Below, piece after piece: positions 1,129 to 23,697 of a stretch of DNA of 39,653 bases. The position numbers were made by a program, and so were the translations under genes. The stretch's first letter is position 1. Every line of letters begins with the position of its first letter. Source of the DNA: Nitrosotalea sp. (lineage in GTDB: Archaea; Thermoproteota; Nitrososphaeria; Nitrososphaerales; Nitrosopumilaceae); contig JAHEYZ010000006.1 in assembly GCA_023251295.1 (NCBI GenBank), positions 1,655-41,307 on the forward strand, read 5' to 3'. The notes beneath the pieces are model-generated. The model saw nothing but the letters and a program-made list of their open reading frames with translations, was not told where the DNA came from and made no database searches.

Positions 1129-2247
1129 TCACTTTGGAAGATTGGCAGAAAATTCTGACCAAAGATTTTCTTTTTGTAATTGATTGAACCAAAAGAGGTT
1201 GTAATGTTCAACTGTCAGAAATAAAAACTCTAGAAAGTTTTTGTATGAAAAGTCTTCTGGCAATAATTCAAGTGCAAGTCTAGCCTCATTTAGATACAGA
1301 TTACTTTTTTCTATCGTAAGAACAAAGCCTTTTTTTACATCGCCAGAAAGGAGACTGTAGTAGAGAGGCCATGATGGAATCTTTACAAACTTATTCTTTA
1401 TGGAATCTTCGATCTCATTTCCACATCCTACTGATTCAGATGCTTTTGCCATTCCTAGATAGAATATCTCACCAAGTGGTTTTCGGTTTAGAGCCATGTT
1501 TCGTCCTGCAGTTCCCATAACCGCTCTGTATTTTTTGTAACATTGCATCATTTCTTCCTCAGAAACGCTAGCAGGTTTTGTCTTTAGTTTAAAATCTAAA
1601 TATTGACCAATTCTTGCATCCTTAAATCCATGCTCAAATTCTTCAAGAACCTCCTTACCTCCCTTTGCTATTTTGTCTCTTGCAAGCTTGAGCAGATATG
1701 GATTCATTAGTTTGTAGTCATCGAGATATTCCAGATCTTCATCGTTGTCCATGATTCTGTCCATTGGTTCACTCAGATCGATTGCAATAATATGGCCATC
1801 AATCATACAAGTTCTCAATTCTGAATCTTGTTTATCACCAAAATATTCTGAAGACGCATCATATAATGCGCTAAATACCGGTAATGTCATCTTTACAAAA
1901 TTGGAATTTAAAATTCTTGAAACTCTATCTGACAGTGTTTCATGATCTTCAAGTTTGGTTTTTACTGTAGACATTAGTGATGGGTTTAGAATTAATTCGT
2001 TAGAACCTATCTCTTCCGCAAATTTTTGTTGTGTCACGTTAGGCGACGAATCAGATTTAATTTCTTTTAACAAATCACTAGTGAATCGTTTTACAAAGTT
2101 TGGAAATCCTTCTTCTGCTTCTTTTTTGTATTTGTCAAATTGTCTGTATCCCTTACTTTTGAAAAGAGCTTGTTTTACAATTTCTTTGCCAGGTTTTGTG
2201 CCTAAAAGTGCGTCCTTGCTAAAAATTGATTCGTCCTTGCTACTCAC
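1129..2247 (-). CDS. Unknown 372-aa protein in operon with rfcL
   Basis: I do not recognise this family. The product is a charged, probably soluble and mostly helical protein with no signal peptide or membrane segment and no zinc-binding cysteine pattern. The N-terminal third is lysine-rich (for example KKEAEEG); the C-terminal third is aromatic and leucine-rich. The start is a GTG at 2247 (MSSKDESIF). The overlapping ATG just upstream is out of frame and hits a stop at once. A TATA-like element (ATAAATAATA on the minus strand, about 2265-2275) lies about 23 nt upstream, fitting a leaderless transcript. Only 5 nt separate its stop from the rfcL ATG, so the two are probably co-transcribed. That context suggests, but does not show, a link to replication. 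Confidence 0.8.
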   Translation of the reverse strand: MSSKDESIFSKDALLGTKPGKEIVKQALFKSKGYRQFDKYKKEAEEGFPNFVKRFTSDLLKEIKSDSSPNVTQQKFAEEIGSNELILNPSLMSTVKTKLEDHETLSDRVSRILNSNFVKMTLPVFSALYDASSEYFGDKQDSELRTCMIDGHIIAIDLSEPMDRIMDNDEDLEYLDDYKLMNPYLLKLARDKIAKGGKEVLEEFEHGFKDARIGQYLDFKLKTKPASVSEEEMMQCYKKYRAVMGTAGRNMALNRKPLGEIFYLGMAKASESVGCGNEIEDSIKNKFVKIPSWPLYYSLLSGDVKKGFVLTIEKSNLYLNEARLALELLPEDFSYKNFLEFLFLTVEHYNLFWFNQLQKENLWSEFSANLPK

Positions 2248-2321
2248 ACCATGGCAAATCTTGTTTTATTATTTATGCATTGAGTTACTTTAGAGTTATT
2301 TGGAATAAATTAGGATATAAG

Positions 2322-3140
2322 ATGAGAAAAAATATGGAAATTATTAAAGTGTTACTAGAAGCATCAAAACGAGTTTATGATAATGTAAAACATATGCCTG
2401 GCACAAAAGAGTCTGGAGGAGATTTTGGTAGGGGAGCAGGTGGAGACATATCAAGAAGAATAGACATCGTAGCAGAAAAAACAATTCTCGATTATCTTAA
2501 GGAGATAAATTTTGATTGTGTAGTTCTTGGTGAGGAATGTGGTAAGGTGGAACTTTCAAAAAACCCAAAAGGTTTCATCATAATGGATGCGGTAGATGGC
2601 TCTACAAATGCGGTAAGAGGATTACCATTTTTTTGTTGTTCACTTGCATTTGCCACAAACAATAGGCTTAGTTCTGTTACAGATGGAGTTGTGATAGACC
2701 TTTCAAGAGGAGATAGGTACTATGCAACAAAAGGGAAAGGTGCTTTCCTGAATGGAAAGAGAATTTCTGTCAATAATGATAAAAATCCAATCTATTTTGT
2801 TGTAGGTCTTGATATATCCGGAATATCACCAAAGGTTCTTGGAAGATTATCACCAATAATTGCGTCATCAAACCACATTAGACATTTTGGGGCAAACGCA
2901 CTAGAATTTGGGATGTTTTCTAAAGGACTTATTGACGTATTTATTGATTTAAGAGATAAAATACGGGTTACTGATATAGCTGCTGGCCTTTTAATTGCGT
3001 TAGAAGCTGGAGGACTTGTTGTTGATAAAAATGGAAAACCTCTTGATTCTGATTTAGGTTATGATAATAAGCTATCTTTTATTGCAGCTTCAAATAAAAA
3101 AGCTCTTGACGATATAATGGATAAGCTAAATCACATTTAA
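2322..3140 (+). CDS. Inositol monophosphatase / fructose-1,6-bisphosphatase family protein
   Basis: Metal-dependent sugar phosphatase of the IMPase/FBPase (SuhB-like) superfamily; archaeal members often dephosphorylate both myo-inositol-1-phosphate and fructose-1,6-bisphosphate. Motifs visible are the first metal-ligand glutamates (VVLGEECG), the DPIDGT-type metal site written here as DAVDGSTN, and the C-terminal DIAAGLLIALEAGG stretch matching the family WDxAAG...EAGG signature. The track ORF begins at 2226, inside the divergent neighbour's upstream region. I place the start at the ATG at 2322 (272 aa) or the ATG at 2334, giving a normal family length. Substrate cannot be settled from sequence; gluconeogenic FBPase is plausible but other archaeal FBPase types exist. 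Confidence 0.88.
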   Translation: MRKNMEIIKVLLEASKRVYDNVKHMPGTKESGGDFGRGAGGDISRRIDIVAEKTILDYLKEINFDCVVLGEECGKVELSKNPKGFIIMDAVDGSTNAVRGLPFFCCSLAFATNNRLSSVTDGVVIDLSRGDRYYATKGKGAFLNGKRISVNNDKNPIYFVVGLDISGISPKVLGRLSPIIASSNHIRHFGANALEFGMFSKGLIDVFIDLRDKIRVTDIAAGLLIALEAGGLVVDKNGKPLDSDLGYDNKLSFIAASNKKALDDIMDKLNHI

Positions 3141-3189: not shown

Positions 3190-3298
3190 TGGCGCCCTTG
3201 GCGGGATTTGAACACGCGTCGAGGCCGTGACAGGGCCCCATTCTAGACCGGGTTTTACGAGAGATGGATTTCTCCAAGCCTCACTATACTACAAGGGC
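3190..3298 (-). tRNA. tRNA-Asp(GTC) with a 33-nt insertion in the D arm, CCA encoded
   Basis: The acceptor stem GCCCTTG/CAAGGGC is perfect. The anticodon arm is GGGCC-CTGTCAC-GGCCT with anticodon GTC; the variable loop is 4 nt, and G73 plus CCA is encoded. The gene is 33 nt too long for a 76-nt tRNA. The excess (about 3250-3282) lies between the start of the D arm and GGTCTAGA, so it looks like a non-canonical D-loop intron. I could not fold a clean bulge-helix-bulge, so the exact splice sites are uncertain. Two further oddities are a U-C mismatch in the T stem (GCGTG/CCCGC) and an A-A mismatch in the D stem after removing the insert. Confidence 0.85.
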
Positions 3299-3397
3299 GT
3301 CGGAGTAAGCTGGACAAAAATCTGAGTTTAAAGGTTTCTATTAAATCAAAAAATTTTGTAAAAGACTAAATTATACACAACTATCAGACTTCGCATT

Positions 3398-3474
3398 GGG
3401 TTCGTAGCTCAGCCAGGTAGAGTACCGGACTTTTAATCCGGCTGTCCGGGGTCCGAATCCCCGCGAACCCGCCA
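3398..3474 (+). tRNA. tRNA-Lys(TTT), CCA encoded
   Basis: Complete cloverleaf: acceptor GGGTTCG/CGAACCC, anticodon stem CCGGA/TCCGG around loop CTTTTAA (anticodon TTT), T arm with GTCCGAAT, and G73 followed by an encoded CCA. No intron. A short T-rich run follows the 3' end and may serve as terminator. Confidence 0.96.
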
Positions 3475-22743: not shown

Positions 22744-23697
22744 ATGACTGAGACTATGATGTGGGTAGAAAAATATCGCCCTGCGAAGCTTTCTTCAATA
22801 ATAAATCAAAAAGAGGTCATAGGTAGTCTAAAAGGCCTTTTAAAAAATACCTCGGAAATACCACATCTAATGTTTTCTGGCTCAGCTGGAGTTGGAAAAA
22901 CTACAGCTGCCATGTGTCTTGCACATGAAATCCTAGGAGAGCATTGGAAAGACCATACTCTTGAACTTAATGCGTCTGATGAACGTGGTATAAACATGGT
23001 AAGGGAAAGGGTCAAGAAATTTGCGCGATTTTCAGGATTGGATATAAAAATTCCATTTAAAATAATAATTTTAGATGAAGCTGATGAGATGACTTCTGAT
23101 GCCCAAACAGCCTTACGTAGAATTATAGAAGACACAGCAAAATATTGTAGATTTGTTTTAATTGCAAACAATATATCCAAGATAATAGAACCGCTACAGA
23201 GCAGATGTGCCATATTCAAGTTCACACGGATTTCAGAAGATGAAGTGATTTCGTATCTTGAAGAAATCTGCAAAAAAGAAAAAGTAAAGTTCGAACAAAA
23301 AGGACTTGAAACAATTTATAGTTATTCAGAGGGCGATATGCGTCACGCCATAAACATACTTCAGGCAGTAGCAAGTCTTGGAATAGTAAATGAATCCAAT
23401 GTAAAAATATCAGCTGGTCTTTCAAGAGTAAGTGATGTTGGTGGTATTCTTAAACTAGCGATCGCAGGGAAATTATCTGAAGCCAGAAACAAGATGATAG
23501 AGATGATTAAAGTATATGGCATGTCAGAATCAGACTTTCTAAAATATTTAACTGAAGAATCTTACAAGATAAAGGCTGGAAAATTGGATGAGATTTTAGA
23601 GACAATTGCAAAATATGATTACAGGTTAATTATTGGTGCAAATCCCGAAATACAGCTCTCTGCGCTTTTAGCAGAACTTGGGCGAATAGGAAAATAA
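22744..23697 (+). CDS. rfcS: Replication factor C small subunit
   Basis: Small AAA+ subunit of the clamp loader, four copies of which join one RfcL (also in this window). The 317-aa protein opens MMWVEKYRPAKL after four extra residues, and has Walker A SGSAGVGKTT, Walker B ILDEADEM and the RFC-specific SRC arginine-finger motif (QSRCAIFKF). No intein. The ATG at 22744 follows an AAAGGT ribosome-binding-like element and an AATTTTATTA TATA-like element about 29 nt upstream. It is divergent from gins23, and its stop is 3 nt from the 3' end of the convergent tRNA-Ser. Confidence 0.96.
   Translation: MTETMMWVEKYRPAKLSSIINQKEVIGSLKGLLKNTSEIPHLMFSGSAGVGKTTAAMCLAHEILGEHWKDHTLELNASDERGINMVRERVKKFARFSGLDIKIPFKIIILDEADEMTSDAQTALRRIIEDTAKYCRFVLIANNISKIIEPLQSRCAIFKFTRISEDEVISYLEEICKKEKVKFEQKGLETIYSYSEGDMRHAINILQAVASLGIVNESNVKISAGLSRVSDVGGILKLAIAGKLSEARNKMIEMIKVYGMSESDFLKYLTEESYKIKAGKLDEILETIAKYDYRLIIGANPEIQLSALLAELGRIGK

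Follow-up and report, generated by a model that had tools for sequence, protein, structure and literature searches.

The window (the whole stretch of Nitrosotalea sp. DNA analysed, 39,653 nt) carries on its minus strand, from 3298 to 3193, a tRNA-Asp(GUC) gene interrupted in the D loop. G1 lies at 3298 and the discriminator G73 at 3193, directly followed by CCA (3192..3190). The acceptor stem reads GCCCUUG/CAAGGGC, the anticodon loop CUGUCAC and the T loop UUCAAAU, which confirms a preliminary description of this DNA as far as the normal acceptor and anticodon of a tRNA-Asp are concerned. ARAGORN made no call on the unspliced locus, which was also absent from the Rfam matches at gathering threshold, and a permissive Rfam search gave one misaligned 17-bit match. 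When the insert was removed, ARAGORN called the remaining sequence tRNA-Asp(gtc); removal of the intron thus restores a complete tRNA. The promoter region shared with the divergent tRNA-Lys(UUU) contains the TATA-like sequence TTTAAA (3327..3332), which precedes G1 by about 29-34 nt. On the other side, an inositol monophosphatase family gene (window 2226-3140) adjoins the tRNA-Asp gene, and a similar gene end is found beside the N. devanaterra orthologue.

Table 1. Features of the tRNA-Asp locus in window coordinates; intron, exon ends and splice-site bulges are predicted.
Feature	Position	Strand	Basis or remark
tRNA-Asp(GUC) precursor gene, 106 nt including intron	3193..3298	-	found by ARAGORN only once the intron is removed
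Exon 1, positions 1-15 (GCCCUUGUAGUAUAG)	3284..3298	-	alignment to intronless orthologues and BHB scan
31-nt intron, positions 15/16	3253..3283	-	sole splice-site pair fitting the BHB in 22/22 distinct sequences; mature tRNA of 75 nt, like orthologues
Exon 2, positions 16-73	3193..3252	-	alignment to intronless orthologues and BHB scan
Anticodon GUC	3229..3231	-	
A12, facing A23 (3242)	3287	-	family-wide
A23, facing A12	3242	-	most other families of the order that were read have U23
U52, facing C62 (3204)	3214	-	mostly U in the family, replaced by A or G in certain lineages
C62, facing U52	3204	-	
G10-U13, 5′ strand of central helix H and of the mature D stem	3286..3289	-	
Intron GUAA, 3′ strand of central helix H	3255..3258	-	some relatives have GUAU or GUAC and thus 4/4 pairs
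Intron GAGG, 5′ strand of helix h′	3279..3282	-	covariation with 3262..3259 among relatives
Intron UCUC, 3′ strand of helix h′	3259..3262	-	
5′ splice-site bulge AG^U	3283..3285	-	BHB scan
3′ splice-site bulge AA^C	3252..3254	-	BHB scan
Conserved divergent promoter region, tRNA-Asp/tRNA-Lys	3299..3397	.	seven-genome alignment
tRNA-Lys(UUU), divergent neighbour	3398..3474	+	conserved in relatives

The insert had been described as 33 nt located between positions about 16 and 18. While the D-loop insert is real, its boundaries are those of a 31-nt segment (3283..3253) between positions 15 and 16, as judged by orthologues without insert and by splice-site geometry. In the alignment, intronless orthologues read ...GUAUAG|CCCGGUCUAG..., which places the junction at 15/16. 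Independently, we tested every splice-site pair in 22 distinct pre-tRNAs of the Nitrosotalea lineage for a bulge-helix-bulge (BHB) composed of a 4-nt helix joining exon 1 to the 3′ portion of the intron by at least 3 pairs (the known orientation of the central helix, PMC4090602), bulges of 3 nt with the cut behind their second base, and an intron helix of 4 bp. An exon 1 of 15 nt with an exon 2 of 60 nt was the only placement fitting all 22 sequences (the next best fitted 13), so that alignment and scan agree on the same 15/16 pair. With shuffled inserts, the window copy taken alone formed this BHB at the 15/16 placement in 0.43% of cases. Intron length across the lineage is 31-34 nt.

In the window copy both 3-nt bulges are present and the central helix H includes three of the four standard pairs, G10 facing an A; of 46 distinct tRNA-Asp introns, 21 form all four. 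Next to the 5′ splice-site bulge, helix h′ has its four pairs in 22/22 lineage sequences. By inspection, the bases upstream of G10 are unpaired with those after C16. No outer exon helix h is evident, and the motif was classed as relaxed, HBh′-like. The earlier statement that no canonical BHB folds thus holds for the full hBHBh′ motif only, but a relaxed BHB with its two bulges is present. RNAfold of the single precursor returned the intron hairpin, with neither cloverleaf nor BHB, and was not used as evidence.

Introns at this site are not restricted to the Nitrosotalea lineage. A pattern search of 400 genomes of the order gave matches in 102 of them, and tRNA-Asp introns at 15/16 were found in several families (f2, f7 and f8). 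As in the window copy, GUAN (GUAA, GUAU or GUAC) faces G10UAU13 and the bulges are kept, whereas the hairpins are of unrelated sequence and different length, and in the mature form both the D and the T stem are paired in those families. Among the 46 distinct tRNA-Asp introns, 177 of the 184 cells of helix h′ were paired, compared to a mean of 132 and a maximum of 147 after shuffling, a comparison which overstates independence because sequences within a lineage are related. In helix H, the pairs at U11, A12 and U13 were invariant and position G10 formed G-C, G-U or a G/A mismatch, an invariance that outside the Nitrosotalea lineage comes partly from selecting the sequences with a pattern requiring GUAN.

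Matches at 15/16 in a further family, f10, considered as tRNA-Asp, proved to be tRNA-Glu(UUC). They carry an insert with GUAN before the 3′ boundary, most of them with a further D-arm insert, and their h′ pairing was within that of shuffled sequences (46 of 64 cells, with a mean of 42 and a maximum of 49). At four tRNA-Asp loci with a 15/16 intron (L282, L293, L299 and L300), the sequence departs after GTTCGAA or GTTCAAA, apparently because the T loop carries another insert.

One could imagine that the insert is retained, giving a mature tRNA-Asp with an extended D loop, since it folds as a hairpin. This is very improbable: the conserved parts of the insert are the GUAN stretch and the bases beside the splice sites and not the hairpin sequence, its length varies from 17 to 42 nt among tRNA-Asp genes while splice geometry is fixed, and sister lineages do without it.

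The preliminary description also considered that the gene is degrading and that another tRNA-Asp exists. Neither was borne out. When 61 genomes were searched with the spliced sequence, seven of them, belonging to four genera and all with the D-loop insert, shared an identical 3′ 57 nt, and other family members matched end to end, with no insert. Among 250 genomes of the family, the full interrupted gene was matched in 38, namely the genome of the window and 37 others, all of the Candidatus Nitrosotalea lineage. Family members outside this lineage whose sequence was read carry an uninterrupted 75-nt orthologue. The latter has the mature layout of the window copy and differs from it by the absence of intron and at positions 26, 27 and 42-44.

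In a Nitrosotalea-lineage draft (G231, contig C89, about 23539-23579), the 3′ part of tRNA-Asp runs straight into that of the divergent tRNA-Lys (GTGACAG|AGTACCGG), both 5′ parts being lost by deletion or assembly misjoin. The family searches found no tRNA-Asp in three drafts of intron-bearing genera (G238, G240 and G269, with a reported completeness of 96-99%), owing to either an assembly gap or an altered gene.

A similarity search in the window's own genome (69% complete) found nothing else resembling this tRNA-Asp. We then scanned the complete N. devanaterra chromosome (LN890280), as tiles rejoined to 1,805,304 bases. ARAGORN in intron mode gave 42 candidates on it and no tRNA-Asp; the orthologous locus (G010:C1:1576061-1576170) was misnamed tRNA-Trp(CCA) with a 16-nt intron, possibly an annotation error in related genomes as well. 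A custom scan of the same chromosome for GUC anticodon arms accompanied by a T arm and an acceptor returned one convincing candidate, the orthologous tRNA-Asp locus. Matches of 71-74% in intron-bearing genomes, examined as second tRNA-Asp, were tRNA-His. In a same-genus draft (G001:C17:114677-119432), a cluster of high-scoring tRNAs includes one with a bacterial-looking GUC arm and may represent contamination (5% reported).

The two stem mismatches noticed earlier, A-A in the D stem and U-C in the T stem, are present as A12/A23 and U52/C62. The alignment of relatives' tRNA-Asp proposed in the preliminary description found the insert in the 37 other lineage genomes, and A12·A23 and mostly U52·C62 in intronless family orthologues too. 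Uninterrupted orthologues read GCCCTTGTAGTATAG|CCCGGTCTAGAAT..., hence A12/A23 is present without any intron. A pattern search of the family matched 188 of 250 genomes; among the matches listed, position 23 is A in every case and position 52 mostly U, sometimes G (where the pair is present) or A. The strict pattern left about 62 genomes unmatched, including all of genus g15, and in two g15 genomes read separately both mismatches were present. In other families of the order, the tRNA-Asp genes read have U23 in most cases and a paired T stem in all. The mismatches probably arose within the family or at its base. As its intronless tRNA-Asp genes have them too, they are specific neither to the window gene nor to the insert. 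Position 52 is changeable, which points to tolerance at this site more than to strict selection.

A pseudogene whose work is done by another tRNA-Asp could account for the two mismatches and for the lack of a call by ARAGORN and default Rfam. It is nevertheless extremely unlikely in view of the 3′ 57 nt identical in four genera, the same mismatches in the intronless genes of the family, the conserved promoter region and the searches for a second tRNA-Asp, which found none in N. devanaterra nor, by similarity, in the window's genome. Splicing at slightly shifted sites (e.g. near 16/17), leaving a mature tRNA different by one or few bases, is hardly credible either, as an exon 1 of 16 or 17 nt satisfies the BHB in 13/22 and 11/22 sequences, respectively, and only 15/16 fits 22/22 and reproduces the 75-nt orthologue.

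Each of seven near-complete relatives has two genes with the tRNA_int_endo domain (PF01974); the incomplete genome of the window has one. Two genes are consistent with the heteromeric splicing endonuclease reported for Thaumarchaeota, the phylum of this organism, where the two-subunit enzyme is associated with noncanonical introns (PMC4090602). Noncanonical tRNA introns of Archaea that have a relaxed BHB (HBh′, hBH) are established (PMC4090602), and the tRNAscan-SE 2.0 paper gives a Thaumarchaeota-specific intron model and 107 such introns (PMC8450103). As these, the window intron is small, located away from 37/38 and has 3-nt bulges beside a short central helix; it differs in having three central pairs and no outer helix. 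Position 15/16 is absent from the examples given in PMC4090602 (20/21, 22/23, 25/26 and others), a list which ends with 'etc.'. Introns within the D arm, as here, are described in tRNAs of Caldiarchaeum and other archaea (PMC3293823, PMC12397907), which represent another lineage; the available passages of these two papers include neither exact positions nor tRNA-Asp examples. The paper on the N. devanaterra genome speaks of putative introns in a variety of tRNAs (PMC4836417). Our literature search for a named 15/16 intron in tRNA-Asp found none, which is weak evidence. The tRNA-Asp intron is at most a further case of a known kind of archaeal noncanonical intron.

Taken together, these results point with high confidence to a functional tRNA-Asp(GUC) gene, in which the 31-nt D-loop insert would be a noncanonical pre-tRNA intron at 15/16 removed by the splicing endonuclease. 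In the precursor, G10UAU13, the 5′ strand of the D stem, would pair with the intron GUAA while the intron closes its own hairpin. The two bulges left, AG^U and AA^C, would be cut by the two-subunit enzyme and ligation of the exons would yield a 75-nt tRNA with the layout of the intronless tRNA-Asp of the family. We infer transcription, cleavage and ligation of this precursor from the gene and its relatives. The preliminary description had proposed an unusual splicing substrate with compensating modification or editing. Its first part is supported by the conserved insert, the covarying BHB-like structure, predicted sites that coincide with the junction of intronless orthologues, and the endonuclease genes. 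Since intronless tRNA-Asp genes of the family share the mismatches, there is no need to assume a special compensation linked to splicing.

This analysis corrects a possible reading of the locus as a degrading tRNA, and explains why scanners miss or misname an essential tRNA-Asp gene. For an intron position common to several families, it also predicts the exact splice site. The question of the intron is thereby separated from an odder one, the D-stem mismatch that the whole family carries in its only tRNA-Asp. A functional reason for a fixed A12/A23 together with mostly U52/C62 or A52/C62, such as modification or editing peculiar to the lineage, or a tuning of elongation factor or amidotransferase recognition, is conceivable although rather unlikely. 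If true, the family's ammonia-oxidising archaea would depend on a single tRNA-Asp of non-standard structure.
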